A DNA stretch of 40,544 nucleotides from Chitinophagia bacterium (GTDB lineage: Bacteria; Bacteroidota; Bacteroidia; Chitinophagales; Chitinophagaceae): positions 1 to 40,544 of the forward strand of contig RFVQ01000002.1 in the NCBI GenBank assembly GCA_009922495.1. The letters run 5' to 3'. The position numbers and the translations under genes were made by a program. Positions 347 to 39,713 of the stretch are shown here, piece by piece; within the stretch, counting starts at the first letter, position 1; each line of letters opens with the position of its first letter. The notes beneath the pieces were generated by a model. That model saw only the letters and a list, made by a program, of their open reading frames with translations. It was not told the DNA's origin and did no database searches.

Positions 347-2303
347 ATGCGATATGCATTAATACTTGTTCTGATTTTGTTTTTTTCCGGTAAAGAACGC
401 CCTGATGTTGAATGGACAGAATACCTCGGGGGAGCCGATCGAAACCATTATTCACCACTGGATCAAGTAAACCGGAGCAATGTGTCGAAGTTGAAAAAGG
501 CATGGGAGTATCATACGGGGGATACATCCGGACAAATGCAATGCAATCCCATCATTGCGGATGGATTGTTGTATGCAACTACTGCTTCTATTGAGGTCTT
601 TGCATTGGAACCTTCTACCGGCAAGGAAGTCTGGCGATTCCGCAATGCCGGGGAAGTCAAATGGTACAGTTTGAGCAGGGGGGTTAGTTATTGGGCCAAA
701 GGGGACGATAAAAGGATTTTTTTCACCGCAGGTGAATGGTTGTATGCATTGAATGCCAAATCTGGGGAGCTTGTGAAAAACTTTGGCAATGGGGGACGGG
801 TAAGCCTTAAAACGGGATTGGGAGCATCTGCCCGGAACAAATTTGTGATCTCTTCTACGCCCGGTGCCATTTTTGAGAACCTGATCATCATGCCATTGCG
901 GCTTTCTGAGGGTGCCGATGCGGCCCCTGGTTACATACAGGCTTTTGATGTGGTGTCAGGAAACCTCCAATGGGTATTCAAAACCATACCATCGCCCGGC
1001 GAGTACGGTTATGAAACCTGGGAAAAGGGAAATCACCTGAATGAAGAAATCGGTGGAGCCAATTCCTGGGCGGGCATGAGTGTAGACCACAAAAGGGGGA
1101 TGATTTTTGTCCCGACCGGATCCGCAGCATTTGATTTTTACGGGGGAAACCGCAAGGGAAACAACCTTTTTGCCAACTGTCTTTTGGCCCTGGATGCCCG
1201 AACCGGAAAGCGGAAATGGCATTATCAGTTTGTGCACCATGATGTATGGGACAGGGATCTTCCTTCACCTCCTAACTTATTGACAATAAACAAGAATGGA
1301 AAGCCTATTGATGTGGTTGTTCAGGCTACAAAGGCTGGTTATCTTTATGTGTTTGAGCGAACAACCGGTAAGCCGGTTTATGATATCAAGGAAGTTTCGG
1401 TTCCTGTAGAAGGGCTTATGGGAGAGCAGCTTTCTGCGACGCAACCTGTTCCGGTCATGCCCCAACCCTTTGCCCGAACCGAATTCAGGGAGGAGGATCT
1501 TAATCCCTGGGCGGAAAACCTGGAGGAGTTGAGGGATCTTGTACATCAACTCACATGAGGTTCCTTGCATCCTTAAAATGAACGAAAATAAAAATTACAT
1601 AAATAATTCATTGTCAAATGGTAATAAAATTTATATAGAGTATTGCTCTAGTTGTCACAAGGCTGATTTCTCGGGTATGCCCCAGGCTGGGATTCCCTCA
1701 CTGAAAGATATTGGCAAAAGAAAAGACTCGCTTTATGTCGCTTCCATTGTATCCCAGGGAAAGGGGATGATGACGGGTTTTCCCCAGTTGACAAATGATC
1801 AAAAAGGAGCAGTGGTGGCATTTCTTTTGGGTAAAGAGAAGTCTTCAGCCTTGACCGAAAGCAGGCCGAAAAAAGCGGTTTCGCCCTATGTTTTTGATGG
1901 ATATACCCGGTTTTTGGATAAAAATGGATACCCGGCGGTCAAGCCGCCATGGGGACAATTGACCGCTGTCAACCTCAATACGGGGAAAATTGTTTGGCAG
2001 AAAGTATTGGGTGAATACAAAGAGTTGACAGCCAAAGGAATCCCCCAGACCGGTGCAGACAATTATGGGGGAGCGGTGGTGACCAAAGGGGGATTGGTCT
2101 TCATTGCGGCAACCAAGGATGAACGGATCAGGGCTTTTGACAAATCGACCGGTAAGCTTTTGTGGGAGGCGGAGCTCCCGGCTTGTGGATTTGCGACTCC
2201 CAGTGTCTACGAATCCCATGGAAAGCAATACCTGGTTGTCGCCTGTGGTGGTACAAAACTCGGGGCTAAAAAGGGAGACAGCTATGTGGCGTTTGCCCTA
2301 TGA
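347..2303 (+). pseudogene. PQQ-dependent (quinoprotein) dehydrogenase with embedded cytochrome c domain, split by a frameshifting internal deletion
   Basis: ORF 347-1558 has a signal peptide and quinoprotein propeller repeats. ORF 1539-2303, in another frame, has CSSCH cytochrome c followed by the C-terminal PQQ propeller (KPPWGQLTAVNLNTGKIVWQ...GFATPSVYESHGKQYLVVACGGTKLGAKKGDSYVAFAL). Together they look like one protein lacking a short central segment. Confidence 0.8.
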
Positions 2304-5904: not shown

Positions 5905-5979
5905 GGGAGTTTAGCTCAGCTGGTTTAGAGCATCTGCCTTACAAGCAGAGGGTCGGCGGTTCGATCCCGTCAACTCCCA
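5905..5979 (+). tRNA. tRNA-Val (anticodon TAC)
   Basis: Cloverleaf by eye: acceptor GGGAGTT/AACTCCC, D-arm TAGCTCAGCTGGTTTAGAGCA, anticodon loop CTTACAA, T-arm GGCGGTTCGATCCCGTC. Confidence 0.95.
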
Positions 5980-5984
5980 CAGAA

Positions 5985-6066: not shown

Positions 6067-7236
6067 ATGCAAGAGAATATCTCCCGCCAACAATTTTTAT
6101 CCATGTCAGCTGCCGCCGGTGCTGCCATGTTGCTGGGTTCATTGGAGGGCTGGGCTGCAGAGAAACAGCTGACCAAATTGCGGGTAGCCATCATTGGCTG
6201 CGGCAGTGTGAGCAACCGATACATTCCTCATCTTCAGACTTCCGCTCTTATCCAGATCGTCAGTCTTTGTGACATCAAACCAGAGAGAGCCATTGCCCAA
6301 AACAAAGAATACAAGGTCAATGCTGCCACCTATGGCAACATCGATGACATGTTGAAAGGAGTTCCCTTTGACATGATGGTCACCTTGACGGACATGCAGA
6401 AGCATGGTATACTGAACAAGAAAGCGCTGTTGGCAGGCAAACATGTTTGGAGTGAAAAACCGATGGCCAATACCTACGCAGAAGGGAAGGCCTTGCTGGA
6501 GCTGGCGCGCAGCAAAGGATTGAAACTATGGGGTGCACCGGCAGTCGTCAACAGTCCACAATTTGCTTTCATGAGCAAATCCATTCAGGCAGGTAAATTG
6601 GGAAGAATTGCCAGTGCACATGGGCAATACGGGCATACCGGTCCCACCTGGTCTGCCTTTTTTTATGAAAAAGGCGGAGGCAGCATGCCAGACCTTGGTG
6701 TATACAACATGGCCACGCTTACTGGCTTACTCGGACCTGCAAAATCCGTCATGGCCATGCTCAGCATTGTCAATCCGGAACGCACGGTAGATGACAAAGG
6801 CAAGATCAAAGTTGAGGCAGAAGACAATGCCCATGTTCTGTTGGAACACGCCAATGGAGTGATCAGTCATGTGATGTGTGGGTTCAATTATTTTGACCCG
6901 CATGGTCATGAAGCCAAGGGTCAAGAACTGCATTCCATCCAGATCTTTGGTGACAAAGGAAACATGCGCTTGATCGGATATGATTGGGAGACCAATGGTG
7001 TGATCTTAGATGACTCTTGGGAAAGAGCCGGAGTGCTCCATGAAAAAGAAACGGGAGGATACCAATGGCAGGAAGGAGCAACCAAGGTAGGGGAGTCAAT
7101 TGTCAACAAGACCGAACCCCGCATCAATGTTGAACATGCCTTGCATGTGCTGGAAATAATCGAGGCGGCCAGAAAATCATCGGCCACCGGAATGAAAGTC
7201 AAGCTGACTTCCAGTTTCCAATGGCCAATGATCTGA
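6067..7236 (+). CDS. Gfo/Idh/MocA family oxidoreductase with N-terminal Tat-like signal region
   Basis: ORF 6034-7236; likely start ATG at 6067 (MQENISRQQFLSMSAAAGAAMLLGSLEGWAAEKQ), then LRVAIIGCGSVSNRYIPHL Rossmann fold and EKPMANTYAEGKALLELA. Confidence 0.88.
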   Translation: MQENISRQQFLSMSAAAGAAMLLGSLEGWAAEKQLTKLRVAIIGCGSVSNRYIPHLQTSALIQIVSLCDIKPERAIAQNKEYKVNAATYGNIDDMLKGVPFDMMVTLTDMQKHGILNKKALLAGKHVWSEKPMANTYAEGKALLELARSKGLKLWGAPAVVNSPQFAFMSKSIQAGKLGRIASAHGQYGHTGPTWSAFFYEKGGGSMPDLGVYNMATLTGLLGPAKSVMAMLSIVNPERTVDDKGKIKVEAEDNAHVLLEHANGVISHVMCGFNYFDPHGHEAKGQELHSIQIFGDKGNMRLIGYDWETNGVILDDSWERAGVLHEKETGGYQWQEGATKVGESIVNKTEPRINVEHALHVLEIIEAARKSSATGMKVKLTSSFQWPMI

Positions 7237-7237
7237 T

Positions 7238-7948
7238 TTATTTGAGTTTCTTCAGGTAGATCTCCCGGTACTCCACTTTCATCTTGGGCATTACATGCAC
7301 CTGTAGGCCAATAAGCCCACTCATTTTCCTCTTGGAAGCATCTTCATCCGTGGTCTCGCTCATGAGCACGCCATTGATGTAATGCAAGATATGATTGCCT
7401 TTCGCAATGATGTGGATCTGGTTCCAGTCGTCTTTTTTGATCTTGGATTTTAATTCATCACTGTTGCCTAGACTACCGGTGATCGTGGGCTTTTGACCCT
7501 CTTTCAACACAGATTGTTCACCTCGCATGGCCAGGAAACCTCTTCCTCTTTCCTCATAGTTCTGACCGGTGTAGCGATTGGCACCATCGATGTCGGCCTG
7601 ATAGCCCTTCAATCCGTAAGGCACATTTTCAACCATTTCGCTGCGGTATTGTACGCCGCTGTTGCCTTCGGGACTGATCCTGTACTCCGCCTTGAATTCA
7701 AAGTCTCCCGGAGTATCACCGCGGTAAATCAGGAAAGTGTTGGATTTTAGCTGTTTCTCTTTTGTCACTTCACCCACGAAAGTTCCGTTCTCAATTCTCC
7801 AGTGACTGGTATCCGCCTCCCAGTGCTTCATGGTTTTCCCATCAAAGATCTTCTTGAATCCATCCTTGCTTTTTTGGGCATGAAGGTTCAAGAAAAGCGA
7901 ACTGAATGCGCAGGTAAAAAGCAACAACTTGAGGTTCCTGGTTTTCAT
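7238..7948 (-). CDS. DUF1080 domain protein (3-keto-disaccharide/3-keto-glucoside hydrolase-like), secreted
   Basis: 236 aa; signal peptide; GFKKIFDGKTMKHWEADTSHWRIENGTFVGE...FEFKAEYRISPEGNSGVQYRS is typical of DUF1080. Confidence 0.92.
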   Translation of the reverse strand: MKTRNLKLLLFTCAFSSLFLNLHAQKSKDGFKKIFDGKTMKHWEADTSHWRIENGTFVGEVTKEKQLKSNTFLIYRGDTPGDFEFKAEYRISPEGNSGVQYRSEMVENVPYGLKGYQADIDGANRYTGQNYEERGRGFLAMRGEQSVLKEGQKPTITGSLGNSDELKSKIKKDDWNQIHIIAKGNHILHYINGVLMSETTDEDASKRKMSGLIGLQVHVMPKMKVEYREIYLKKLK

Positions 7949-7993
7949 CTTTTTGTTTTGTGGTATAGAGTTGATCCGGTTTAGGAAGGGCCG

Positions 7994-9136
7994 TTAATCA
8001 CAGCTCTTCCAACTGCGGCTTGCAGCAGAGTCCAGAACGGCCTGACAAACTTTTTGGGTTTCATAAGCATCCTGGAAGGTAGGGGAGCAGGGCTCACCGG
8101 TTTCAATGCTTTTCAGGAAATCAGCCACCTGGTGAACAAAGGAATGCTCATAACCGATGCCCAATCCGGGTACCCACCATTTGTTCATGTAGGGTTGTTC
8201 GCCATCGGTTACATGGATGGAACGCCATCCCCTCAGATTGGATTCATCTCCGTTGTCGAAATACTCCAGGCGATTGAGATCGTGAAGATCCCAGCGGATG
8301 GAAGCATTGGCACCATTGATTTCAAATGTATACAAGGCCTTGTGTCCGCGCGCATAGCGGGTGGATTCAAAAAGCCCCAGTGATCCATTGTTGAATTTGC
8401 AGAAGAACGAACAGGCATCATCAATGTGCACATCTTCCACCTTGCCCGTCAGCTGGTGCATCCTTTGTTTGACGAATGTTTCCGTCATGGCGGATACTTC
8501 CTGAATACCTCCGTTGATCCAGATGGCAGTATCGATACAATGCGAGAGTAGATCGCCTACCACACCGGATCCTGCAACCGCTGCATCCATGCGCCATAGG
8601 GCTTCGCCTCCTTGTGGAAGGTTTTCATTGATGGTCCAGTCCTGCAAGAAGTTGGCACGGTAGTGATAGATCTTGCCCAACTTTCCGGAGGCTACAATAT
8701 TCTTGGCCAAGGTAACGGCAGGGATTCTTCTGTAGTTGTACCATACAGTATTCTTCACACCGGCTTTTTCAATGGCGTCCACCATTTCCTTGGATTCTGC
8801 CAAGTTTCTGGCCAATGGTTTTTCACAGAGAATCATCTTGCCTGCCTTTGCTGCTGCAATGGCGATCTCTGCATGGGTATCATTGGGCGTACAAATATCC
8901 ACTGCATCAATGTCGTCTCTTTCGATGAGTTTTCTCCAATCGGTTTCGGTGCTTTCATAACCCCATTGTTCAGCAAAGGCCTTGAGTTTTGTTTCGTTTC
9001 GAAAACAAACCGCTTTCAATACTGGCTGGTATTCCAAATCTGGGAAAAAGTTGGGTATTCTCTTATAACCGTTCGAATGGGTTCTGCCCATAAAGCCGCC
9101 ACCGATCAATCCGATGTTCAATGTTTTTTTTGCCAT
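7994..9136 (-). CDS. Gfo/Idh/MocA family oxidoreductase
   Basis: 380 aa; [64 protein letters not shown]. Confidence 0.93.
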
Positions 9137-9173
9137 GTTTTAATTTTTTAAAAAATATATAGTCAATTTTCTT

Positions 9174-10205
9174 TTAACCGTTCCAACCATGATGATCCCT
9201 CACCTTGATCAAGGCGGCCAGGATATCGTTCCAGGTTTGTTGTTTCATCATCACTTCATTGGGGAACATACAGCCGTCCCAACAGATATGTTGAAAGGCC
9301 TTGGTGAGTTCTCCTTTTTCATCCCTGAGCCAGAAGCCCGCATGTTTGGCAATGTCGAGCTTGCCGTTGGGATCCAATGCCTGACAGTGCCTTCCGGTCT
9401 TGTCATGTGATCCAGTTCCATGAACGGTACCATCATTTTGTGCTACATGAAAATCGATGGTCCAGGGTCTCAAGGCAGCAGTAAGTTTCCTCAATCCTTC
9501 ATCGAGAGCAGCACCATCGCTCCAATCAAAATTTTCAGGAAGAATGCGATCTTCTGGAGCGTTGTATCCCAGCAGATACAGCAGGGTATGGGCCATGTCG
9601 GCCTGGAAACCAATGTTCGGACGATCCACGGCTTCCAGTGTATCAATCATGGTCTTCCAGCTGTGCATCCCACCCCAGCAGATTTCCCCCTCGGCTGCCA
9701 GTCGCTCACCGTAATCAGCCGCCACGTCACAGGCTTCGCGGAATGTTTCTGCAATCAATTTGGTATTGCCGGCAGGATCCTTGGCCCATGCTTCAGGTTT
9801 GCTGGCAGAATCGATTCTGATGATGCCGTAGGGCCTTACACCAGCGTTGCGCAGTTTCTTGCCGAACTCACAGGAGCGTTTTACCATGTCTACAAAGACA
9901 GCACGATCTTCCTTGCTGCCCATGGCAGGACCGCCCCAGATGGGAGCCACCAAAGAGCCAATGTTCAGGTTCAGCGAACCTACTTTATCGGCCAGTCTTT
10001 TGATGCCATCTTCTGATTCATCAATGTTGAAATGCGGTTCAAACAAACCGATATCGATGCCATCGAATTTCACTCCATTCACCTCAGCATTGGCAGTGAA
10101 ATTGATGAGGGTATCCAGATCGATCGGTGGTTCTGAATCCGGACCTTTTCCTACGATACCAGGCCAGGTTGCATTGTGCAGTTTAGGGTAATTGTTTTGA
10201 GACAT
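9174..10205 (-). CDS. Sugar phosphate isomerase/epimerase (xylose isomerase-like TIM barrel)
   Basis: 343 aa; [14 protein letters not shown]...[56 protein letters not shown]. Confidence 0.85.
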
Positions 10206-10231
10206 ATGGTTGCAATTTTAAATTGAAAGAA

Positions 10232-11083
10232 TCAGTGTGAATGTTTGGCGATTTGTTGTTTGATAAACTTGAGACCATGCTCTGCCATGTCCCATGGTGC
10301 GGAATATTCTCTCCATACGTTGATGGCATTGGCAAAGTCGGGATCGTTTCTGGAAAAGGCTTCAATGGTCAGCCATCCGTTGAAGTTGATCTCAGCCAGC
10401 GCAGCAAAGGTTTCATCCCAATGCACATGGCCATCACCCGGTGTACCACGGTCGTTCTCGCTGATGTGTACATGTGCGAGAAGGGGAGCGATGGTATGCA
10501 AGGCGTCCTTGGCTTTTTTCTCCTCGATGTTGGAATGATGGGTATCGTACATGGCTTTCACATTGCTGTGAGAAGCCAATTCGATCAGGTGACGCAGTTG
10601 TGTCATGGTATTGCAGAGGTAACATTCAAATCTGTTCAAGGCTTCCAATGCAAGGGTGATTCCTGCTGTTGCCGCATGTTCACCAGCTTGGTGCAGCACT
10701 TCTGCACACCATTTGTATTCGTCTTCCTGAGGAGGTTTTTTTGAAAAATTTCCATGGGCAGAATGAAAGGGACCACAGAGAATGGTTGATTGCATGTCGT
10801 GTGCACGGTCAATGCCCCATTTGATGCGATCCAAGGCTTTTGCTCTAACAGCAGGATTGGGATCTACCGGATTCTGTTCTGCATCTACCACAAATACGGC
10901 AGTGGTTTCCAATCCAATGTTCGCTGCATGATCTCCAAAACGTTTGTAGGCTGCGTCATCGGGTGCACCGATGAAACATTCTACCCCATCATAACCAATC
11001 TCTTTGAGTCGGTCGATGATGGGAAACTGCTCATCTGAAACAACCGCTGACCAAACCAGTGTATTGAAACCTATTTTATACAT
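10232..11083 (-). CDS. Sugar phosphate isomerase/epimerase (hydroxypyruvate isomerase-like TIM barrel)
   Basis: 283 aa; IGFNTLVWSAVVSDEQFPIIDRLKEIGYDGVECFIG...ALEALNRFECYLCNTMTQLRHLI...KAMYDTHHSNIEEK...HISENDRGTPGDGHVHW. Confidence 0.9.
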   Translation of the reverse strand: MYKIGFNTLVWSAVVSDEQFPIIDRLKEIGYDGVECFIGAPDDAAYKRFGDHAANIGLETTAVFVVDAEQNPVDPNPAVRAKALDRIKWGIDRAHDMQSTILCGPFHSAHGNFSKKPPQEDEYKWCAEVLHQAGEHAATAGITLALEALNRFECYLCNTMTQLRHLIELASHSNVKAMYDTHHSNIEEKKAKDALHTIAPLLAHVHISENDRGTPGDGHVHWDETFAALAEINFNGWLTIEAFSRNDPDFANAINVWREYSAPWDMAEHGLKFIKQQIAKHSH

Positions 11084-11091
11084 GTTGTATG

Positions 11092-11985
11092 CTATTTTCT
11101 GTAGGGTACATGAATGTCAATCGGACCAGCCCATTTCTTGGGGATCTTTTTTCCTGCTGCCCAGTGGATGGCATTGATCACCAAATGCTGGAAGGGCTCC
11201 TGATCAAAATCTTCCGGATGTCCCATCGTGGTGAAAAAAATCTTTGCACCATATTGGTTGATGCCTGTCCAGGCCACGGGATTATCATAGGCTTTGTTCG
11301 TATTGGGATTCACGGAATGTCCCATCATCAGGGCCTTTGAGCCATTGGAAGGAAATTTTGGCAGCACCTGGTACAGCCATGAACGCACATGAAAACTTTT
11401 GCCTACACCATTGAGTATCGGATCATCCGCTACGGCTTCGATCATGGTCACATCGGTAGAAGATTCATGTCCGTAGTGTGTGTGTTTGTCTACACCGCCC
11501 CAACCGGGAGGCGTATTGAAAGCCCATTCACCAAAGGCGTTCCAGCTTGCCAAAGGATGACCCTTTGGATAATTGAAAGCATGTGTGGTGGTACGGAATC
11601 CTACCATGGGTTTTTTTGTTTGCAGAAATTCTTCGATCAGTTTCACTTGGTCAGCCGGTAATCTTCTCCAGCGGAGAAAAAATACTGCCATGTCTGCCTC
11701 CTTCAAGGCTTCGAGTCCGGGTATGTTTTCTTCTGCATTGTGATCAGGATAAGCCTTTAATACCTTGGTCCGGAATCCATAATTTTTTTCCAGTTCCGCA
11801 GCAATTTTGGGCATGGTGGCTTCGCTGCTGTATTCATGATCACCGGTTACAAAAACAACCAAAGGTTGTTTGGATTTTTTCTGTGCCATGCCAATGGTGG
11901 CAATCAGCATGCTGCAGGATAGGAGCAAAACACCGATCGTGCCCTTGTGTAACAGATAATATGCTATTTTTTGAGTGTTCATCAA
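11092..11985 (-). CDS. ThuA-like domain protein (trehalose utilization family)
   Basis: 297 aa; QPLVVFVTGDHEYSSEATMPKIAAELEKNYGFRTKVL...FFLRWRRLPADQVKLIEEFLQTKKPMVGFRTTTHAF. Confidence 0.88.
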   Translation of the reverse strand: MMNTQKIAYYLLHKGTIGVLLLSCSMLIATIGMAQKKSKQPLVVFVTGDHEYSSEATMPKIAAELEKNYGFRTKVLKAYPDHNAEENIPGLEALKEADMAVFFLRWRRLPADQVKLIEEFLQTKKPMVGFRTTTHAFNYPKGHPLASWNAFGEWAFNTPPGWGGVDKHTHYGHESSTDVTMIEAVADDPILNGVGKSFHVRSWLYQVLPKFPSNGSKALMMGHSVNPNTNKAYDNPVAWTGINQYGAKIFFTTMGHPEDFDQEPFQHLVINAIHWAAGKKIPKKWAGPIDIHVPYRK

Positions 11986-12000
11986 GTGTATGATTTAAGG

Positions 12001-15000
12001 TTATTTTTTCTCCATGGGATGTTGCTTGAGCAATTCATCCGGAGTATAGAAACCGGTTCTGTCTTTAATGGCAGCCCTCACTTCTTTTACTTTCTGGGGA
12101 GATACTGCTGGGGCTTTGTTGCCAAATGCATTTCGCACATAAGTCAATACTGCCGCCATGTCATTGTCATTCAGCATACCTGCGTAGGGAGTCATGGGAA
12201 CCTGACCTGGATATTTTTTTCCGTTGACTTCGATCGGTCCATATATCCCTTTCATGACCAATTTGATCAATCGGTCTTCACTGCCGTTCACCCATTCAGA
12301 ACCTGCCAGCGGAGGGAAGCCGGATGTTTCCAGTCCCTTGCCATCGGCCTGGTGACAGGTATTGCAAAATCCTTCGCGCATGTAAATGGCCTTGCCCGTA
12401 GACATTACTTCGGGTTTGATACCGGCTACCACAGGAGCTTTGTCTTCAGGAACCTGTTTGGTTTTGATGATGCCATGTCCGTTGATATGTGCCTCTGCTG
12501 CGGCATAAGCACCTTTCATCCAAGAGTCCAAGGGTTTTTTTCCTGCTTCCAGGATGATGGGCAATCCTTGTTCTTTGCTCAACCAGGAAGCAGAAACAAT
12601 GGCCTCCAGGCGAACCCTGGCATCTTCATCCTTTGCAGCGCTCATCAGCAAATTGGCTTTGTCGGGTAATTCGCTTCCAGCAAACCTCACCACTTCAACC
12701 GCTGCAGACCTGATCCGACGATCCTTTGCTTGCAACAATTGGCGGAGCAGGGGTTGGTCTACTTTGTTTTGTCCCCATGAAACCCAAAGGGCTTCCAGCA
12801 ATAGTTTTTCATATTGTGGAGATGTTTTGTCAAGACCGGCTATCCATTTCTTGAGTTCAGGTAATACTGCTGATGCAGGATGCTCCCTTAATTCTCTTCT
12901 TGTTCTGTACCGGGTTCTGTACTCAGGAAGCTTCAGGTTATTCAGCAATTCTGAAATGCTTGCACCATCCACTTTTGCCGGCGTAACCAATGGCCTGGAA
13001 GGGTAGGTGACCCTGTAGATCCGGCCATGTGAATGGTCCCTCAACGGGTCCCTGATATTGTGTTGCATGTGGCCGATCAATACATTGTGCCAGTCGGCGA
13101 TGTAGAGCGAACCATCCGGTGCAAATTCCAGGTCAACGGGACGGTAATTGATGTCGCTGGATCGAACCAGGTCCTGGCGATGCTTGCTGCCAAATCCGGC
13201 TCCGTCATCGTACATCCTGTGTTGTTTGGTGCCCAGGAAACCAATCGTGTTGTTGATCAGCATATCCCCCTGCACATCATCCGGAAAATGCCTGCTGGAA
13301 ATAAATTCCAGACCCGATGTAGGCCTTACCCTCTGCTTCTCTTCAATGATGCTGGCTGGTTTGGGGGTGTATTCGCCATAGCGAGGTTTTACCGTTCCGG
13401 GGATCATCCAGGTTACATCCGGACCGGAGGTTTCGGCATAGAATACCTGTCCCCATTCATCAAAGGCAATACCCCAGGGATTGGGAATCGACAATTGCGC
13501 AATGCGGTCGAGTTTTTTCTTTTTGGGATCGTAGCGGAAGAAACCACCGTTGGTTCCCCTAACAGTGCCATAGGATGTTTCGATGTCATTGGCAAGGAAT
13601 ACACCTTGTCCCATGTAGATACCACCGGATGCATCCGTGGTATAGGCATGGTGCGCGTGATGGGTATCGTGGTCATCGAATCCGCTCAGCAGGATCTCGC
13701 GTTTGTCTGCCACATCATCACCATTGGTATCTTTCAGCAAAAAGAAATTGGTGCCCTGTGAAAGATACACTCCTTCAGGTGCCAGTTCAAAGCCCAGTGG
13801 GAGGTGCAGGTTATCAGCATAGGTGATTTGCTTGTCAGCCTTGCCATCATTGTTGGTGTCTTCCAGGATGATCAGCTTGTCGTTCGGTTTGGGATCACCC
13901 GGTTTCCAATGGGGATAGGTAGGCATAACCGCTACCCATAGCCTGCCTTTGTTGTCGAATGAGATTTGAACAGGTTTTGCCAGATCAGGGAATTGTTCTT
14001 CTGACGCGAAAAGATCAATCTTATAGCCAGGTGCCAATGTGAATTTCTGCAAGGCTTCCTCGCCATACAAATAACGCAAGGCTGCACTGGTGTCCTTGGG
14101 AACATAGTTGGTTTTTACGGCGGGCAGAACGGATGTTTTGGCATCAGCAGCAGCTAGGTCATATGCAGTGCCTCTCGCAGCCATCCAGATCGCGGTATCC
14201 CTGATCAGGGTCATCTCGCGGATCTTTTTTTGTTCTGCGGGATAGTTATCCGGTCCAAATGGATCATATCTTCTTCCGAATACATGAACCCCATTGGGTA
14301 TTTTGTAATCGTTGTGCCAGATCCAGTTTTTTTCCATCACGGCATCAAACACCGTTTTTGGATTGGCCGTTGAGATCGTTTTCTGTTTTCCAAAAACTTT
14401 GTCAGCCAGAAAAGGTCCGAATTTGGCATACCCATCATAGGTCAATTGTGATCCGTCAATCGTCAGATCTGTTGAGGGATCGTCTATCCATTGTTTGCTG
14501 ACGGTATAGGCATCCACAAAATGAACTTTGTTTTTGGCGGCCACCTCTTTCATGGCGAGTGCATACAATTGCAGATTGGCATTCTCTTTCTTTCCATTGG
14601 GCAGATCATACTTGGCAGAAAGATCTTCAAAAGCAATAGGAGATACCAGTACCAACTGAGGAGCAGCTTTGCCGTTGTATTGCTGGGCAAGGGTATGTTT
14701 GATGAAGGCGTCGAGTTCGGCCTTGTAATTGTTCAAACCAGCGGCGCCGGCAAAGGATTCATTGTAACCAAAGAAAGCGATGATGATGTCTGCTTTGTGA
14801 TTGGTCAGCCATTGATCAGGATATTCTTGAAATCCCTGAAGGTCTGCAGGCTTTGCCAGTTCTGTTTGAAATTTTTCCGCACCCGGAAAAGCCCATGGTG
14901 TCTTTCTTCCTGAATGAGGTCTGAATCCAGGCGTGTTGCCACCGTCACACATGTTGCGGACATACAACAGGCTGTCTGGGTAACGAAGATGAAGAGCGGT

Positions 15001-15198
15001 CTCAAAATAATCGGCATTGATCATCCTGGACCCCAGGTTGTTTCCGATCAGGATGATATGGGATCCTTTCTTGATGCTGATCTTGGGATCCTCAGGGAGT
15101 ATGAAGGCCATGATACCTGCCAATAGCATGCATCCTGATAACAACCATGTAGCCTGTTTTTTAAAATTCGATTTTATTTTCATGTTGGAAAGCATCAT
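12001..15198 (-). CDS. SGNH-hydrolase-like domain fused to PVC-type membrane-bound dehydrogenase propeller, HEAT repeats and C-terminal cytochrome c
   Basis: 1065 aa; N-term HIILIGNNLGSRMINADYFET...IIIAFFGYNESFAG; propeller LFASEEQFPDLAKPVQISFDNKGRLWVAVMPTYPHW; heme motif CNTCHQADGKGLETSGFPPLAGSEWV near the C-terminus. Confidence 0.88.
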   Translation of the reverse strand: MMLSNMKIKSNFKKQATWLLSGCMLLAGIMAFILPEDPKISIKKGSHIILIGNNLGSRMINADYFETALHLRYPDSLLYVRNMCDGGNTPGFRPHSGRKTPWAFPGAEKFQTELAKPADLQGFQEYPDQWLTNHKADIIIAFFGYNESFAGAAGLNNYKAELDAFIKHTLAQQYNGKAAPQLVLVSPIAFEDLSAKYDLPNGKKENANLQLYALAMKEVAAKNKVHFVDAYTVSKQWIDDPSTDLTIDGSQLTYDGYAKFGPFLADKVFGKQKTISTANPKTVFDAVMEKNWIWHNDYKIPNGVHVFGRRYDPFGPDNYPAEQKKIREMTLIRDTAIWMAARGTAYDLAAADAKTSVLPAVKTNYVPKDTSAALRYLYGEEALQKFTLAPGYKIDLFASEEQFPDLAKPVQISFDNKGRLWVAVMPTYPHWKPGDPKPNDKLIILEDTNNDGKADKQITYADNLHLPLGFELAPEGVYLSQGTNFFLLKDTNGDDVADKREILLSGFDDHDTHHAHHAYTTDASGGIYMGQGVFLANDIETSYGTVRGTNGGFFRYDPKKKKLDRIAQLSIPNPWGIAFDEWGQVFYAETSGPDVTWMIPGTVKPRYGEYTPKPASIIEEKQRVRPTSGLEFISSRHFPDDVQGDMLINNTIGFLGTKQHRMYDDGAGFGSKHRQDLVRSSDINYRPVDLEFAPDGSLYIADWHNVLIGHMQHNIRDPLRDHSHGRIYRVTYPSRPLVTPAKVDGASISELLNNLKLPEYRTRYRTRRELREHPASAVLPELKKWIAGLDKTSPQYEKLLLEALWVSWGQNKVDQPLLRQLLQAKDRRIRSAAVEVVRFAGSELPDKANLLMSAAKDEDARVRLEAIVSASWLSKEQGLPIILEAGKKPLDSWMKGAYAAAEAHINGHGIIKTKQVPEDKAPVVAGIKPEVMSTGKAIYMREGFCNTCHQADGKGLETSGFPPLAGSEWVNGSEDRLIKLVMKGIYGPIEVNGKKYPGQVPMTPYAGMLNDNDMAAVLTYVRNAFGNKAPAVSPQKVKEVRAAIKDRTGFYTPDELLKQHPMEKK

Positions 15199-16409
15199 AA
15201 TGAGAGATCGGGGTTATTGGGACCAAAATGTTTGAGGATGACAATGGGATCGGTCGTGGAGGTATTGACGATCTTCACGCCTTCCATCGCCGCTTTTTCA
15301 CTGATGAAGAATTCATCGTTGGTGAGTTGTCCATAGCGGATCAATGCTGGGGTTTCAATTTCCCATACGCCAAATGTTCCGCGACCTTGCATGACAATGA
15401 TGCCATACGCAGCACTGTCTTTGATGGTAACGGTTTGTCCGGGCAACACAGTCAGCTCTTTGGCACTGAAGGCATCCGATTTATAACAAACCCAGTTTTC
15501 AACATAACCTTCGGCCTTCATTTCATCCAAATTCCTTACTGGCTTGGGCGCCATGAATCGATGCTGCATCATGTTGGGATCCACATTGAGTTCCCAGTCG
15601 AGCACATCCATCAGGGCATCATAATCGCCGATGCTTTCTTTTGGGGTACCATTCCACAACAATTCTTCCGGTATGATCGCTTCATTCACGAGCGACTGGT
15701 ACATCGCAAATACATCTGAAGCTTTTTGGGGCTCATAAGTACACATGCTGCCGGGTGCATGAAGGAGTCCGGGGGGAACATCCCATCCAGTTCCGGGTTC
15801 CAGTCGGTAGGCTTGAGAATAGTTGGTAAGCTTGTTATCGCCCTTGGTGAAATTCATCAGACATTCCTTGATCACTTCTTTGGGCGTACCAGGAGCGATA
15901 CCGATGAAGGTATAGGGGAAATCGCCACCATGGTTGTTCAATTGTGGTGGGAAATAATAGGCTTCTGGTTTTCCTTTCTGTCCTATGAGTGCAGCCTTTT
16001 CATCATTGTGGTGCACATGATGGGGAAGGGGCCCCATGTTGTCGAAGAATTTGGAATACATGGGCCAGCTCTGGTATTCATTCCAAAGACGGTCACCGAT
16101 CAATGCGCCTTTGAGTTCATCAACAGCGTCTTTGAGCAGGAACTGATGGGTTTTTCCTCCCTCTTCAAAAACAATGGGACTCAATCCTTCGTTCTCTCCG
16201 GTAAGGGGTCCATTTTTCGCAGGTGTAGTGGAGGACAGCCAACGCTCATCAATACCCCCACGCGCACCGCCGAGTACATAGTAATCGTCTGGATGCAATT
16301 TGATCCTTCTTCCGGGAACACAAAAGGATCGCGGTACCCAGGTGGGAGCCAGGCGTAGAATACCTTTTCCTTGTTCCAGTGCTTTCTGTGCCATTGATTG
16401 TGCGCTCAT
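15195..16409 (-). CDS. Cupin-type, mannose-6-phosphate isomerase-like protein
   Basis: 404 aa; PLPHHVHHNDEKAALIGQKGKPEAYYFPPQ...RLEPGTGWDVPPGLLHAPGSMCTYEPQ resembles metal-binding cupin isomerases; ATGA overlap with the next gene. Confidence 0.65.
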   Translation of the reverse strand: MSAQSMAQKALEQGKGILRLAPTWVPRSFCVPGRRIKLHPDDYYVLGGARGGIDERWLSSTTPAKNGPLTGENEGLSPIVFEEGGKTHQFLLKDAVDELKGALIGDRLWNEYQSWPMYSKFFDNMGPLPHHVHHNDEKAALIGQKGKPEAYYFPPQLNNHGGDFPYTFIGIAPGTPKEVIKECLMNFTKGDNKLTNYSQAYRLEPGTGWDVPPGLLHAPGSMCTYEPQKASDVFAMYQSLVNEAIIPEELLWNGTPKESIGDYDALMDVLDWELNVDPNMMQHRFMAPKPVRNLDEMKAEGYVENWVCYKSDAFSAKELTVLPGQTVTIKDSAAYGIIVMQGRGTFGVWEIETPALIRYGQLTNDEFFISEKAAMEGVKIVNTSTTDPIVILKHFGPNNPDLSL

Positions 16410-16419
16410 AACAGTTGTT

Positions 16420-17436
16420 TTAAGTGGTAATTTCTATTGTTAGGTTGTAGGTTCTTGTTTCTCCGGGTTCAATGAAGATCAGGGTGTTGTTTTCTCTTGC
16501 CTTTGCCTGTCCGATGGGTGGGTGTGATCCCGGCTCAATGCCGGTTACATATTCCCCTTTGCCAAAGTGTTGCCAGTTGGTGAGCCAGGGAAGTTCTAGT
16601 TTTGAAAATTTCATGGCAATGCCGAGATGGATTTTCGGATTGTGCAGTCCTGCAATGCATTGTCCCTTCTCATCCGCTTCAATATCGATGATGGCCACCT
16701 GCTCTCCGTTACCATTGTGCTCAGGGATGGCATCGCGGCATACTTTGAAAGCTTCAGGGTTGGGGAATTCCTTCCCCTCTCTTGTTGTCATGTTCCCCTT
16801 CCAAATCAACTGGGCTCCTTCATCCGCCAGTGGCCAACCAAAGTTGCAATGATAAAGGATCATGTGCGGGGCGGCTGTATTTCCTCGGTTGGTTATTTCG
16901 TCATGAATATGGATGGCTGATGATCCAAGCGTTGAAGAGATTGTTCTCCGCAGTTCAAGAGCAGGACCAAAAATATTGGACTCTTTGATGATGCCGGTAA
17001 TGCTCATTTCGTATTTGCCTGCAGCGGGATCGGGTTGGATGATGGATTCAACATAAGCAGGGGTATTGCTGATCCTGCCATGAATGCCTCTTTCTCCATA
17101 TTCATCTTTTTCAGGACCCCCTACATGGGTGAGCCCGCATGTATTCAAGAGCCCGCCTCCAAAGGTTCGCAACCAATCCAATCCCTTGTCGGACAAGGGT
17201 TGCGGGGGGGTGAAACCTCCATGGCTGAGCCATGCCAAGTTGAATTGATTGTAGGATGCATCAGCAATGTCCATCGCACGGTCAATCAACACCTTGTAGC
17301 GAAGTCCGGATCCTGTATTGATCCAGGCCACCCGCATGCCCCTGCTAAGACCATTGTCGATCACAGCGGTTTCAATGCCTCCGATCTGGGAAGCATTGCC
17401 AACCTTGTCATTCCATATGGATGGGTTTGGTGCCAA
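16420..17436 (-). CDS. DUF4432 family (aldose-1-epimerase/galactose mutarotase-like) protein
   Basis: 338 aa; RGMRVAWINTGSGLRYKVLIDRAMDIADASYNQFNLAWLSHGGF...GGGLLNTCGLTHVGGP...GEYVTGIEPGSHPPIGQAKARENNTLIFIEPGETRTYNLTIEI. Confidence 0.85.
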   Translation of the reverse strand: MAPNPSIWNDKVGNASQIGGIETAVIDNGLSRGMRVAWINTGSGLRYKVLIDRAMDIADASYNQFNLAWLSHGGFTPPQPLSDKGLDWLRTFGGGLLNTCGLTHVGGPEKDEYGERGIHGRISNTPAYVESIIQPDPAAGKYEMSITGIIKESNIFGPALELRRTISSTLGSSAIHIHDEITNRGNTAAPHMILYHCNFGWPLADEGAQLIWKGNMTTREGKEFPNPEAFKVCRDAIPEHNGNGEQVAIIDIEADEKGQCIAGLHNPKIHLGIAMKFSKLELPWLTNWQHFGKGEYVTGIEPGSHPPIGQAKARENNTLIFIEPGETRTYNLTIEITT

Positions 17437-17442
17437 TTCAAA

Positions 17443-20133
17443 TTATTTTGAACTGCTGTAAACCGGGTGATTGGGGTTGCCGCCGGATTTCAGAAAAGCC
17501 ATCAGGTCTTTCAATTCATCAGGATTCAAGCCATTGATCATGCCGGGAAGCATGGGAGAGATCTCGGAAACCCTTGTTCTTACCACATTCTTTTTCAAGA
17601 TCACCTTGATGGTTTGGGTGTCAAACGGATTTTGAGAGATATAGTATTTTTCATTGTCCTGGCGGATCAATCTTCCCAATACTGACCCTCCGGTTTTCAG
17701 GAAGAATACTGTTGATCCATATTGATCAGAAATGGTTTTGCTGGGGGCGATGATGGCTTCCAGCATGTCTTTGTTCGAAAATCTTGTACCCAGTTGTGTA
17801 AGATCAGGACCGGCTATGCCTCCTTCTCCTTTGACCTGGTGACAGGTACGACAGAGCGAGGCAGCGAACATGGCCTTGCCTTGCTCAAAGTTTCTGGTTC
17901 CGTTTCCACTGTCAACAATGGCCAATGCTTCTTCCACTTTCCAGTTCCTGCCGGGTCCTTTGGGACGAATGGGTCCAATGTCCAACCCTTTTCTTGCAAG
18001 GGTTACCAGCGAATCTCCCGATAGCTTGTTGAAGTTGGCAAAGCTTTCCTTTGGTACGTTTTCCAGCGCATTTTTACGTGCCTTGTCAATAAAGCCAACA
18101 TAACATACACCGCCTTTGTATCCAAACGCATTGTAGTACCATTGGAAATATTTGTTCCTGGACTCGTTTGTCCATCCATTTTTCGCCTGACTCAACACGT
18201 TGGCATACCATGTCTGGGTGAGGGGAGGCATTTTGGAAAGCATGCCGGCTATGTCCATTCCATATTGAGGATTGCGGAGGATTAGGTCGGATGATTCAGA
18301 CAATGTTTTTTGTCCGTTGGCATCGTCTTTGGCAACGGTAAGCAAAGCCATTGTTTTGTCTACAGCACCAGGGGCATCAACATATACCAATATCTTGCTC
18401 AATTCCTTGTTCAGGTCATTGGTGGTGGCTGGATAAATGGGATTGAGCAGTTTGGCTACCGCTTCTTTTTCTCCTGCATCCGGTGCACCCAATCTGGCAA
18501 AAACCAGTTCGATGGCACGGATCAGATCAAGCCTTTGTGATTCTGTCAAAGGAGTGATATTCACCTTGGTGAGGGCATCCAGCAATGGCTTCTTGACAGA
18601 GACATCTCCTCTTCTGGCCAATCCAATGGCAGCATGGGTAAGGATGATGGGGTCTTTTTCATTCAATGTTTTTTCCTTCCATTCAGACAATGGTTGAGCC
18701 TCTATGGCAATGCGGGCGGCATAACGGATGAACCGGTCTTTGTCCTTTAGGTAGGGCCATGCTTCATTTACTGCACCAGGTTTGGCAACACCGTGAAGGG
18801 CTTCAAGTTTTCTTCTGGTCTTTTGTGCTTCGCTCAACTCTGCTGCAATTGGTTTTGCATCCTTGCTCTCATTGCCAACATAATAAACCCTGTACAGATC
18901 AGATTCAAGTCTGCGGCCACCGGTAAGAAAATACATGGCGCCATCAGGACCTATTGTACCATCGGTGAGGGGCAATGGGGAGCCTGAAACAAATTCTTCA
19001 CCTGTTGCAGTATAGGATGCACCGTTCAGTTTTGGATAAACAGCGTAGATGATGCCGAAGCTCCAGTCAAATGCAAAAAACGCATTGCGGTATTTTTCTG
19101 GGAAGCGGGCATTCCCTCCATACATGAAATTTGTAGGAGAGCCTTGTCCCACATTCACTGCTGCAGGAAGATTGTCTGCATAGTTGGCATTCCATTTCAG
19201 TGTTCCGGGTCTCCATCCATATTCACCACCACTGGTCACTTGCAGGATCCTTGTGGGTCGGTACCAGGGTGTGCCGAAGTCCCATTCCATGTCAGAATCA
19301 TAGGTGAACATTTCGCCAACATTGTTGAAGGCAATATCAAAAGGATTGCGGAAGCCGGAAGCAATGAGTTCCCACTTGCTGCCAGTTGGGTCCACCTTTG
19401 CCACCCATCCACCATGGGATTCAACAGTATTGTCGTGACCATTGGGATCTTTGATGAGGGGGAAGAGGTTATCCAGTTTGCCATCTGGAATGTTCCGGTA
19501 GGCATCCATTTTCGGGATCTTGGTAAAATTACCCGCCACCACATGGATGGATTGTTTGTCGGGTGACAGCACCACACTGTGAGGGCCATGTTCACCGGAT
19601 CCTTCGAGTACTTTGAGCAAACTGATCTTATCAAATTGGTCATCGCCATCAGTATCCTGCAAACGATAGAGTCCGCTTGTTCTTTTCAATTTATTGTCAC
19701 CATTGTGATTGACCATTACATAAAGACTGTTGAAGGCATACAACAAGCCTTGTGCATACCCCATGGAAACTTTGTTGGGAGTGGTGTTGTTGAGAAACAT
19801 GGTATCTTGTAATACCTCAAGTTTCTCTACAGTTGTTTTGGTAACCGTATCACCAATCGCAGGTACTTTGATGCGATAAAGGAATCCATACTGATCGGAT
19901 GCGATGATCCTTCCTTTGTCATCAAATGTCATGGAAACCCATGATCCTTCTTGGTGCTCTGATGGCCCATACAGACGTTCTGCTTTGAAACCTTGTGGAA
20001 GTTTCAACTTGGCAACCTTAGGGTCAGGAGAGTCGAAAAATGCTTCTTGAATATTTGTTGAAAATGAAAAGGCAAGGGCAACCAAAAGGCATGATGCAGT
20101 AACCCAAACAAACAGGTTGATTTTTTTTCTCAT
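17443..20133 (-). CDS. PVC-type heme-binding protein: beta-propeller dehydrogenase-like domain, HEAT repeats, cytochrome c
   Basis: 896 aa; signal peptide; ERLYGPSEHQEGSWVSMTFDDKGRIIASDQYGFLYRIKVP; CRTCHQVKGEGGIAGPDLTQLGTRFSNKDMLEAIIAPSKTISDQYGS. Confidence 0.9.
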   Translation of the reverse strand: MRKKINLFVWVTASCLLVALAFSFSTNIQEAFFDSPDPKVAKLKLPQGFKAERLYGPSEHQEGSWVSMTFDDKGRIIASDQYGFLYRIKVPAIGDTVTKTTVEKLEVLQDTMFLNNTTPNKVSMGYAQGLLYAFNSLYVMVNHNGDNKLKRTSGLYRLQDTDGDDQFDKISLLKVLEGSGEHGPHSVVLSPDKQSIHVVAGNFTKIPKMDAYRNIPDGKLDNLFPLIKDPNGHDNTVESHGGWVAKVDPTGSKWELIASGFRNPFDIAFNNVGEMFTYDSDMEWDFGTPWYRPTRILQVTSGGEYGWRPGTLKWNANYADNLPAAVNVGQGSPTNFMYGGNARFPEKYRNAFFAFDWSFGIIYAVYPKLNGASYTATGEEFVSGSPLPLTDGTIGPDGAMYFLTGGRRLESDLYRVYYVGNESKDAKPIAAELSEAQKTRRKLEALHGVAKPGAVNEAWPYLKDKDRFIRYAARIAIEAQPLSEWKEKTLNEKDPIILTHAAIGLARRGDVSVKKPLLDALTKVNITPLTESQRLDLIRAIELVFARLGAPDAGEKEAVAKLLNPIYPATTNDLNKELSKILVYVDAPGAVDKTMALLTVAKDDANGQKTLSESSDLILRNPQYGMDIAGMLSKMPPLTQTWYANVLSQAKNGWTNESRNKYFQWYYNAFGYKGGVCYVGFIDKARKNALENVPKESFANFNKLSGDSLVTLARKGLDIGPIRPKGPGRNWKVEEALAIVDSGNGTRNFEQGKAMFAASLCRTCHQVKGEGGIAGPDLTQLGTRFSNKDMLEAIIAPSKTISDQYGSTVFFLKTGGSVLGRLIRQDNEKYYISQNPFDTQTIKVILKKNVVRTRVSEISPMLPGMINGLNPDELKDLMAFLKSGGNPNHPVYSSSK

Positions 20134-20236: not shown

Positions 20237-20311
20237 GGAACATTAGCTCAGTTGGTTTAGAGCACTACTTTGACAGAGTAGGGGTCACTGGTTCGAGCCC
20301 AGTATGTTCCA
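20237..20311 (+). tRNA. tRNA-Val (anticodon GAC)
   Basis: Acceptor GGAACAT/ATGTTCC, D-arm TAGCTCAGTTGGTTTAGAGCA, anticodon stem CTACT/AGTAG with loop TTGACAG, T-arm ACTGGTTCGAGCCCAGT. Confidence 0.93.
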
Positions 20312-20331
20312 CCCTCAAATCTCAGACCCAA

Positions 20332-35804: not shown

Positions 35805-35821
35805 GTTGGGTAGCGTTCTAC

Positions 35822-37273
35822 TTATGCAATAATTCCTTTTACCAGTTCGCCTGCGATATCTGTGAGCCTGTAACGTCTGCCCAAATGTCGATAGGTTAAC
35901 TGTTCATGATTGATGCCCATCAGGTGCAGTACGGTAGCGTGAAAATCATGAACGCTAACGGGATCTTTCACAATGTTGTATCCGAATTCATCGGTTTCGC
36001 CATAGACAACCCCGGGCTTTATACCGCCTCCGGCCATCCAAATACTAAAGCATTTGGGATGGTGGTCACGTCCATAATTAACAGCATCAATTTTTCCCTG
36101 ACAGTAGTTGGTTCTGCCAAATTCACCTCCCCAGATCACAAGCGTTTCATCCAGCAACCCTCTTTGTTTTAGGTCTTTTATCAGACCTGCCGATGCCCTG
36201 TCTACATCTTCTGCCTGCATGAGCATGTCGTTTTTTAAGTTGCCATGGGTGTCCCAACCTTGGTGGTACAATTGAACAAAGCGCACGCCTGATTCTGAAA
36301 GTTTCCTGGCCAGCAAGCAATTGGCTGCATACGTTCCAGGCACCAGACAGTCAGCTCCGTACAACTTGATGGTGCTATCCGATTCTTTGCTTAGATCTGT
36401 GAGCTCGGGTACCGCACTTTGCATGCGATAGGACATTTCGTATTGCTGGATCCGCGCATTGATCTCTGGATCACCAAATTGAGAAAACGATTCTGCATTG
36501 AATTGTGCCAGTTGGTCCAGCATATCCCTTCGGCTCTTTCTATCTTGTCCGCTCGGATTGTTTAGATATAGAACAGGGTCTTCGCCGCTGCTGAAAACAA
36601 CTCCTTGGTGCAGGCTATCCAAAAATCCGTTGGTCCATAGTTTTGAATAGACGCCCTGTCCATTTCCCCTGCCACGAGAAAGCAAAACACAGTAGGAGGG
36701 GAGATTGGAATTTTCACTTCCCAGTCCATAACTCATCCATGCGCCCATACTGGGTCTGTTTCCCTGTTGTGCGCCTGTTTGAAAGAAGGTCAGTGCCGGA
36801 TCATGATTGATGGCTTCGGTATGGATGGTCTTGATGATGCAGAGATCATCTACGACTGAAGCCATGTTGGGGAACAATTCAGAAACCCAAGCCCCTGATT
36901 GTCCATGTTGAGCAAAATTGAAGGTAGAGCCAACCAAAGGAAATTTTTCCTGATTCGCAGTCATGCCGGTAAGTCTTTGACCCATCCGAATGGATGCGGG
37001 CAACTCTTCACCATGCATTTTGTTGAGCAGTGGTTTGTAATCAAATGTTTCCAACTGAGACGGCGCCCCATTTTGAAAAAGATAAATGATCCTTTTGGCT
37101 TTGGGGGCAAACTGTGCAACACCCAATGGGAGATTGGATTGTTCGGAGCTGCCAAAGAGTTGGTCTTTGAACAGCATAGAACCCAAAGCGGCACTGCCAA
37201 ATCCTAATCCAGCCTTTGTCAGAAAATGTCTTCTGGTAACGTTGAGCCTGAATTGTTTTTCCTGGTTGTCCAT
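35822..37273 (-). CDS. DUF1501 domain protein (sulfatase-like), Tat-type signal
   Basis: 483 aa; NVTRRHFLTKAGLGFGSAALGSMLF Tat motif; KAKRIIYLFQNGAPSQLETFDYKP; GGEFGRTNYCQGKIDAVNYGRDHHPKCFSIWMAGGGIKPGVVYGETDEFGYN. Confidence 0.93.
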   Translation of the reverse strand: MDNQEKQFRLNVTRRHFLTKAGLGFGSAALGSMLFKDQLFGSSEQSNLPLGVAQFAPKAKRIIYLFQNGAPSQLETFDYKPLLNKMHGEELPASIRMGQRLTGMTANQEKFPLVGSTFNFAQHGQSGAWVSELFPNMASVVDDLCIIKTIHTEAINHDPALTFFQTGAQQGNRPSMGAWMSYGLGSENSNLPSYCVLLSRGRGNGQGVYSKLWTNGFLDSLHQGVVFSSGEDPVLYLNNPSGQDRKSRRDMLDQLAQFNAESFSQFGDPEINARIQQYEMSYRMQSAVPELTDLSKESDSTIKLYGADCLVPGTYAANCLLARKLSESGVRFVQLYHQGWDTHGNLKNDMLMQAEDVDRASAGLIKDLKQRGLLDETLVIWGGEFGRTNYCQGKIDAVNYGRDHHPKCFSIWMAGGGIKPGVVYGETDEFGYNIVKDPVSVHDFHATVLHLMGINHEQLTYRHLGRRYRLTDIAGELVKGIIA

Positions 37274-37277
37274 GATT

Positions 37278-39617: not shown

Positions 39618-39713
39618 ATGGCAGGTGTCGATTGTCCGCTGAAGATAACAAAAAAACAAAACAAACGCTGCTTGTTGCAACCCGATTTGTCAGTGCTCAA
39701 TGTCCAAAAACAG

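Follow-up and report, generated by a model that had tools for sequence, protein, structure and literature searches.

Several bacterial pathways degrade sugars by way of 3-keto intermediates. The levoglucosan pathway of Bacillus smithii (LgdA, LgdB1, LgdB2 and LgdC) is established to run by oxidation, cleavage and reduction through 3-keto-sugars (PMC7676230; also PMC10066097), and plant O-glucosides are degraded in Agrobacterium by GlycDH, AtOGE, AtHYD and Gfo through oxidation, elimination, hydration and reduction (PMC10628242). DUF1080 has been described as a periplasmic 3-keto-glycoside hydrolase, and a LacABC lactose route in Caulobacter with such a periplasmic DUF1080 was proposed from fitness data (PMC9007349). 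In the Bacteroides cluster BT2156-2160, BT2158 is a periplasmic glycoside 3-dehydrogenase (PMC11300592). The PVC-type or 'planctomycete-specific' cytochromes are abundant in some sugar degraders of lakes, and He et al. 2017 describe the PSCyt families as being without any known function (PMC5615132). Here we analysed a window of 40,544 nucleotides (the whole of the stretch, positions 1 to 40,544 of contig RFVQ01000002.1, assembly GCA_009922495.1, Chitinophagia bacterium), which is one contig of a 2.5-Mb draft genome that is 94% complete. It contains a nine-gene operon of sugar enzymes and two exported propeller-cytochromes, cytH and cytS. We found that this unit is real and conserved, and that cytH is an obligate partner of its core sugar genes. 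A literature search (DUF4432, DUF1080 with ThuA, and DUF1080 with PVC cytochromes) found no earlier description of the cluster, subscription papers lying outside its coverage.

Nine successive minus-strand open reading frames (ORFs) span 7238-20133, in the transcription order cytH, DUF4432, cupin, cytS, ThuA, TIM283, TIM343, GFO and DUF1080 (Table 1). The spacing in the ORF list ranges from -4 to 45 bp: 6 bp between cytH and DUF4432, 10 bp between DUF4432 and the cupin gene, a 4-bp overlap of the cupin gene with cytS, and then 15 bp (cytS/ThuA), 8 bp (ThuA/TIM283), 26 bp (TIM283/TIM343), 37 bp (TIM343/GFO) and 45 bp (GFO/DUF1080). The original prediction, made from the letters of the window, had described nine minus-strand genes with gaps below 50 bp, and this agrees with what we found; its gene families were confirmed by Pfam and NCBIfam profiles, and that of the cupin is supported by predicted structure. 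All nine ORFs have homologues in other genomes, with up to 79-95% identity at locus L048, and are therefore not chance ORFs. Scans for sigma-70 promoters and terminators gave sites no commoner than in shuffled sequence, and the case for co-transcription is therefore made by gene spacing and conservation.

We scanned 84,980 species genomes for the cupin and obtained at least 571 relatives; the best 80 loci were taken, 54 of them with full flanks. The genera include Spirosoma, Dyadobacter, Larkinella, Chitinophaga, Pontibacter, Adhaeribacter, Emticicia, Olivibacter and Zobellia. The same nine-gene order was found at seven other Bacteroidota loci (L048, L049, L050, L052, L060, L061 and L072), where the named relatives are mostly Chitinophagaceae metagenome-assembled genomes, and the four-gene core DUF4432-cupin-TIM343-GFO is contiguous at 56 of the 80 loci. 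This gene-neighbourhood check bears out the co-conserved unit of the original prediction. At the full loci, the cupin, TIM343 and GFO are always present (54/54), followed by DUF4432 (53/54), DUF1080 (52/54), cytH (38/54), TIM283 (21/54), cytS (18/54) and ThuA (13/54); cytS, ThuA and TIM283 are thus optional members. The distribution survey covers Bacteroidota, and in a sample of 297 genomes of this phylum the cupin is rare (18 genomes, nine of them with an identity of at least 74%). It was found in none of ten other sampled genomes of the host's family.

The 16 full loci that have no cytH beside the core do not lack the gene. It is present in all 54 genomes, 38 times beside the core and 16 times elsewhere in the genome, and a whole-genome check revealed exactly one copy in each of the 16, with 54-66% identity. 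We read the unlinked regions of 12 of these 16 genomes together with that of genome G190, 13 in total. The gene lies in one run with SusC/SusD in seven of them (L158, L159, L163, L164, L165, L169 and, in G190, L146), and in six of the seven the SusC/SusD proteins are 60-73% identical to the pair adjoining cytH in the Fibrisoma module (L065). G190 has an ABC importer beside them as well. In one Pontibacter (L166), the neighbours of the unlinked cytH are TIM283, ThuA, cytS, another TIM barrel and an alpha/beta hydrolase, and the remaining five loci, of Chitinophagaceae type, had no such neighbours.

In the unbiased 297-genome sample, cytH (at least 53% identity) is present in eight genomes, the cupin (at least 74%) in nine and both in seven; the two cupin genomes without cytH at this level contain a 40% homologue near the cupin locus. 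A GFO like levoglucosan dehydrogenase (LGDH) was found in all nine cupin genomes and in only 12 of the 297. Fisher tests of co-occurrence gave values of about 1e-11 to 1e-15, which serve as indications only, given the non-independence of related genomes. A single cytH copy is present in eight of the nine module-bearing genomes, despite 7-31 loosely similar candidates in each. More distant relatives (38-45%) were found in other contexts, and the tie therefore holds for this cytH subfamily. The original prediction was to be refuted if the cytochrome genes were not conserved together with the oxidoreductase and DUF1080 genes, or if these were separate, unrelated transcription units. It was not refuted: the sugar genes have a real functional tie to at least one exported cytochrome, cytH, found in 54 of 54 genomes, and cytS is optional.

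The cytH protein contains a TIGR02603 haem-binding domain (85.6 bits, above the cut-off of 68.15) with the haem motif C761-x-x-C764-H765 and an invariant M861, and its TIGR02604 propeller match was sub-threshold. The AlphaFold2 model, built with 33 homologues (mean predicted local distance difference test score, pLDDT, 79.7), shows a propeller and a HEAT solenoid together with a poorly modelled cytochrome domain. All of its top 11 Foldseek matches in the PDB are pyrroloquinoline quinone (PQQ) sugar dehydrogenases (2ism, 3a9g, 1qbi, 3das, 7cdy) or AA12 pyranose dehydrogenases (6h7t), with template modelling (TM) scores (target) of 0.53-0.72, and the predicted propeller is six-bladed and of GSDH type. 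In a modest profile alignment, E181-H182 and R262-N263 fall on the acid-His and Arg-Asn motifs of PQQ sugar dehydrogenases, and both motifs are invariant in the 33 homologues. The corresponding residues of soluble glucose dehydrogenase are PQQ contacts. The predicted fold is thus that of a sugar dehydrogenase, and by the alignment the classical PQQ clamp is missing. A PqqC search of the module genomes, as a sign of PQQ synthesis, gave no match, but control genomes were equally without match and the negative carries no weight.

The other proteins of the unit fall into two compartments. An N-terminal hydrophobic stretch was found in 93% of the cytH, 89% of the cytS, 82% of the DUF1080 and 69% of the ThuA homologues at the 80 loci, and in 0-3% of those of DUF4432, cupin, TIM283, TIM343 and GFO, indicating an exported half (cytH, cytS, ThuA and DUF1080) and a cytoplasmic half. 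In the cytoplasmic half, DUF4432 (PF14486) matched PDB 3ty1, a hypothetical aldose 1-epimerase, with E 1.6e-25. TIM283 is closest to D-tagatose/D-allulose 3-epimerases in the PDB (D-tagatose 3-epimerases, E 1.7e-36) and gave 144 bits with the NCBIfam D-psicose 3-epimerase model, below the cut-off of 300. TIM343 is 71-95% identical across loci. GFO matched PDB 4h3v (E 1.2e-100) and 6a3f (E 1.3e-84), and its 354 bits with the levoglucosan dehydrogenase model NF052479 lie below the cut-off of 650, which was reached in none of the 297 Bacteroidota genomes.

The cupin matched no Pfam or NCBIfam family, and none of its homologues matched a Pfam family beyond chance-level E-values; its best PDB profile match was 1qwr (E 0.001). 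Its cupin label in the original prediction had no database match behind it, and predicted structure now supports it. The AlphaFold2 model has a pLDDT of 89.7, and the best Foldseek matches are all phosphomannose isomerases (PMIs), the top one 1zx5 (E 1.6e-17, TM 0.79). H131, H133, E149 and H217 are invariant in 16 homologues, even at 35% identity. The protein thus combines the predicted bicupin fold and the His/His/Glu/His metal site of class I PMIs, the equivalence of the ligands being given by motif register only. Counting from H217, the place of Arg274 in the Salmonella PMI is occupied by Met236 of the cupin, again by motif register and not by superposition. Met236 at this place would fit a non-phosphorylated substrate, and the cupin is probably an isomerase of a non-phosphorylated sugar.

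Considering these features, we propose that the unit encodes an oxidative module for glycoside or hexose catabolism, with cytH as periplasmic sugar oxidiser, cleavage by DUF1080 and conversion of the keto-sugar in the cytoplasm; we give this proposal about an even chance. In the order supposed here, the propeller of cytH, anchored or free in the periplasm, would act as a dehydrogenase with a putative cofactor and oxidise one hydroxyl group of the sugar as it comes in, by analogy the one at C3; the electrons would reach the respiratory chain by way of the c-haem of cytH itself. The exported DUF1080 protein would cleave the 3-keto-glycoside, and the keto-sugar would then be imported, in relatives through SusC/SusD and a ribose-type ABC importer. 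This importer occurs at about 20 of the 80 loci and suggests that the molecule which crosses the inner membrane is of monosaccharide size. In the cytoplasm, TIM343 may act as an enzyme of the hydratase/eliminase type and GFO may interconvert keto and hydroxyl groups with NAD(P), in whichever direction the pathway runs. DUF4432 would be a mutarotase, the PMI-fold cupin an aldose-ketose isomerase and TIM283, where present, a ketose 3-epimerase, and the end product would be an ordinary hexose or ketose. The link to 3-keto-glycosides, made in the original prediction, is supported by DUF1080, the LGDH-related Gfo/Idh protein, the TIM barrels and ThuA; the convergent Gfo/Idh gene is outside the unit. 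The suggestion that electrons of the sugar reach an extracytoplasmic haem chain is kept as a proposal with another donor: GFO is NAD-type and without export signal and therefore cannot donate directly to a cytochrome, and the fold match makes the cytH propeller the likelier source.

Several observations weigh against this proposal. The hhalign match of the cytH propeller is modest (probability 42%, E 2.6e-4) and weak outside the motifs. In cytH, P388-x-T390 stands in place of the Arg-x-Arg that precedes the final PDG motif, and no lysine was found near 358-360 at the aligned PQQ-clamp position, in a profile alignment that is itself modest; with the clamping Lys and Arg-x-Arg replaced, classical PQQ binding is unlikely. 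TIM343 has no characterised relative, and a PDB profile search with it gave no match. No glycoside hydrolase family is consistently present across the loci (GH130 occurs in Dyadobacter loci only), so the substrate is not readable from context. The 80 loci are the closest relatives of the cupin, and the co-occurrence counts are therefore not independent events.

The lost clamp also agrees with a different role for cytH, as an electron carrier or a sugar-binding scaffold whose haem takes electrons from another dehydrogenase, for example a GMC/LacABC-type enzyme encoded elsewhere. The host genome has five GMC oxidoreductase matches, and Hedgehog-interacting protein is a non-enzymatic example of the same propeller fold. 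However, the GMC family was not among the recurrent neighbour families identified, and the acid-His and Arg-Asn motifs of the propeller are kept without change in 33 homologues; we regard this role as quite unlikely. Alternatively, GFO might be the first oxidant of a cytoplasmic cycle of levoglucosan type, in which NAD-dependent oxidation at C3 is followed by elimination and hydration by the TIM barrels and by reduction, the cytochromes serving a separate step such as periplasmic aldose or lactone oxidation. Levoglucosan dehydrogenase is indeed nearest to GFO among the curated models and the characterised PDB enzymes (6a3f), and TIM283 and TIM343 match LgdB1 (30 kDa) and LgdB2 (36 kDa) in size (PMC7676230). 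But GFO, like its counterparts in the whole Bacteroidota sample, falls short of the LGDH cut-off, TIM283 is missing at 33 of 54 loci and resembles ketose 3-epimerases, and the exported DUF1080 and cytH would be left without an upstream 3-keto substrate; we consider this course of events rather unlikely. Membership in the levoglucosan operons as such was rejected by the score of GFO and by the lack in the unit of LgdC (glucose 3-dehydrogenase), a second Gfo/Idh; the only other such gene close by is the convergent one, which is not conserved.

A cyclitol pathway of inositol type, which the original prediction had included, found no support. Gfo/Idh, TIM barrel and cupin superficially resemble IolG, IolE and IolB, but GFO gave 127 bits with the IolG model (cut-off 355) against 354 with that of levoglucosan dehydrogenase, the IolE model reached 42 bits on TIM283 only (cut-off 290), and the best IolB match in the genome (25 bits, cut-off 205) lies on another contig. 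With a cupin of predicted PMI fold, a myo-inositol operon was rejected and this pathway is highly improbable. Returning to cytH as the oxidiser, we might speculate that it represents the first member of a new class of glycoside dehydrogenases, self-contained and fused to a cytochrome c, that lost the classical PQQ clamp and feed periplasmic oxidation straight into respiration. This is a tentative possibility; if true, it would give the PVC-type cytochromes their first defined job.

Table 1. Genes of the nine-gene unit, in order of transcription, and the convergent gene; positions are those of the window.
Feature	Position	Strand	Length (aa)	Basis
cytH: exported; PQQ-sugar-dehydrogenase-fold propeller (predicted), HEAT repeats, TIGR02603 cytochrome c	17443..20133	-	896	profiles, AlphaFold2, Foldseek
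DUF4432: aldose-1-epimerase-like, cytoplasmic	16420..17436	-	338	PF14486 337 bits; PDB 3ty1
Cupin: bicupin of predicted class I phosphomannose-isomerase fold, cytoplasmic	15195..16409	-	404	AlphaFold2, Foldseek, invariant residues
cytS: exported; SGNH, DUF7133/TIGR02604 propeller, HEAT, cytochrome c; optional	12001..15198	-	1065	Pfam/NCBIfam
ThuA-domain protein: exported; optional; ATG probably at 11982	11092..11985	-	297	PF06283 49 bits
TIM283: ketose 3-epimerase-like AP_endonuc_2 TIM barrel; optional	10232..11083	-		PDB and NCBIfam profiles
TIM343: AP_endonuc_2 TIM barrel; core member	9174..10205	-		PF01261
GFO: cytoplasmic Gfo/Idh/MocA dehydrogenase, levoglucosan-dehydrogenase-related; core member	7994..9136	-	380	NF052479 354 bits; PDB
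DUF1080 / 3-keto-disaccharide hydrolase: exported	7238..7948	-	236	PF06439 132.6 bits
Convergent Gfo/Idh/MocA protein: Tat leader; outside the conserved unit	6067..7236	+		ORF list, Pfam

The convergent Gfo/Idh gene, with its ATG at 6067 and its stop at 7236, is separated by 1 bp from the stop of DUF1080 and encodes a twin-arginine-like leader. It exists and converges on the operon as originally predicted, and was rejected as a member of the unit since the relatives do not have it next to their operons. Two plus-strand tRNA-Val genes (5905-5980 and 20237-20313; TAC and GAC) bracket the operon and this gene. The latter tRNA gene is upstream of cytH, and beyond it there is a short ORF that reads like ClpS. 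The operon of L048 likewise lies between tRNA-Val(GAC) and tRNA-Val(TAC), and other relatives have other flanks. A mobile island between the tRNA-Val genes was considered and rejected: the isoacceptors are different, the composition is flat and one relative has the operon at the same position, so that there is no positive signal of insertion.

Elsewhere in the window (347-2303), the gene of a PQQ-dependent dehydrogenase into which a cytochrome c domain is inserted is broken into two ORFs (347-1558 and 1539-2303) that overlap in different frames. A stretch of the PF01011 profile (within about profile positions 377-464) is missing at the joint near 1540, and the gene is a pseudogene or an assembly error. 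A planctomycete-type trio at 33645-39680 encodes a PSCyt1/PSCyt2/PSD1 protein, a DUF1501 protein and a PSCyt1 protein whose C-terminal domains are of Fn3/chitobiase type; at 7 of the 80 loci, homologues of the DUF1501 and PSCyt genes were found near the module. On three other contigs of the host genome (C355, C125 and C213), a DUF1080 gene and a TIGR02604-type propeller/cytochrome match are at most about 3 kb apart, and the pairing of DUF1080 with PVC cytochromes looks like a general theme.

Among the relatives, the module of 13 of the 80 loci (including L113, L117, L028 and other Dyadobacter/Zobellia loci) contains or adjoins genes for an extra TIM barrel (275 aa) and for an alpha/beta hydrolase (272 aa). 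These may form a branch that hydrolyses C-C bonds or lactones. A second bicupin family (33-38% identity) was found at L039-L044 in another conserved cluster, together with GH2, an FGGY kinase, an aldo/keto reductase, PhyH, a nucleoside-hydrolase-like protein and an ABC sugar importer. This cluster may encode another sugar pathway, one that includes a kinase and uses an isomerase of the same type.

In cultured Spirosoma, Dyadobacter, Chitinophaga and Zobellia, one propeller-cytochrome family is thus tied to a fixed set of sugar enzymes from one genome to the next. Because the tie is present in named cultured bacteria, what these cytochromes oxidise becomes directly testable, and the operon is a good entry point to the role of a large and functionally obscure group of bacterial cytochromes. 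The metabolism of 3-keto-sugars also gains two uncharacterised proteins, the probable isomerase of PMI fold and the TIM barrel that is strictly conserved.

Judged by gene content, the unit appears to be a variant of the 3-keto-sugar pathways, similar to them in outline and with every kind of component that they have: an exported candidate dehydrogenase (cytH), an exported DUF1080 protein, TIM barrels and a cytoplasmic Gfo/Idh protein. It is set apart from the levoglucosan pathway, from the classical PQQ dehydrogenases and from inositol catabolism by the absence of a tested defining feature of each. As in the Lgd pathway, one operon combines an LGDH-related Gfo/Idh protein with two TIM barrels that resemble sugar isomerases and agree in size, and some relatives have an ABC importer nearby; unlike that pathway, the unit has a GFO below the LGDH equivalog cut-off, one Gfo/Idh instead of two, and in addition exported cytochromes, DUF1080, ThuA, DUF4432 and the PMI-fold cupin. 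The O-glycoside elimination operon of Agrobacterium similarly combines a non-NAD dehydrogenase (here the candidate cytH) with two TIM barrels and a Gfo/Idh protein. However, the first oxidant is a flavoenzyme there and a candidate PQQ-dehydrogenase-fold cytochrome here, and that operon was described with four enzymes, without DUF1080, cupin and DUF4432. The Caulobacter and Bacteroides systems resemble the proposed module in periplasmic 3-oxidation of the glycoside followed by a DUF1080 hydrolase, whereas their oxidants are the membrane-bound LacABC or BT2158, without a propeller-HEAT-cytochrome. The PVC-type or 'planctomycete-specific' cytochromes (TIGR02603/TIGR02604) have in common with cytH and cytS that they are exported, contain planctomycete-type domains and are suspected of a role in carbohydrate metabolism; in contrast to these cytochromes in general, one family is here linked to sugar enzymes that form a defined set.

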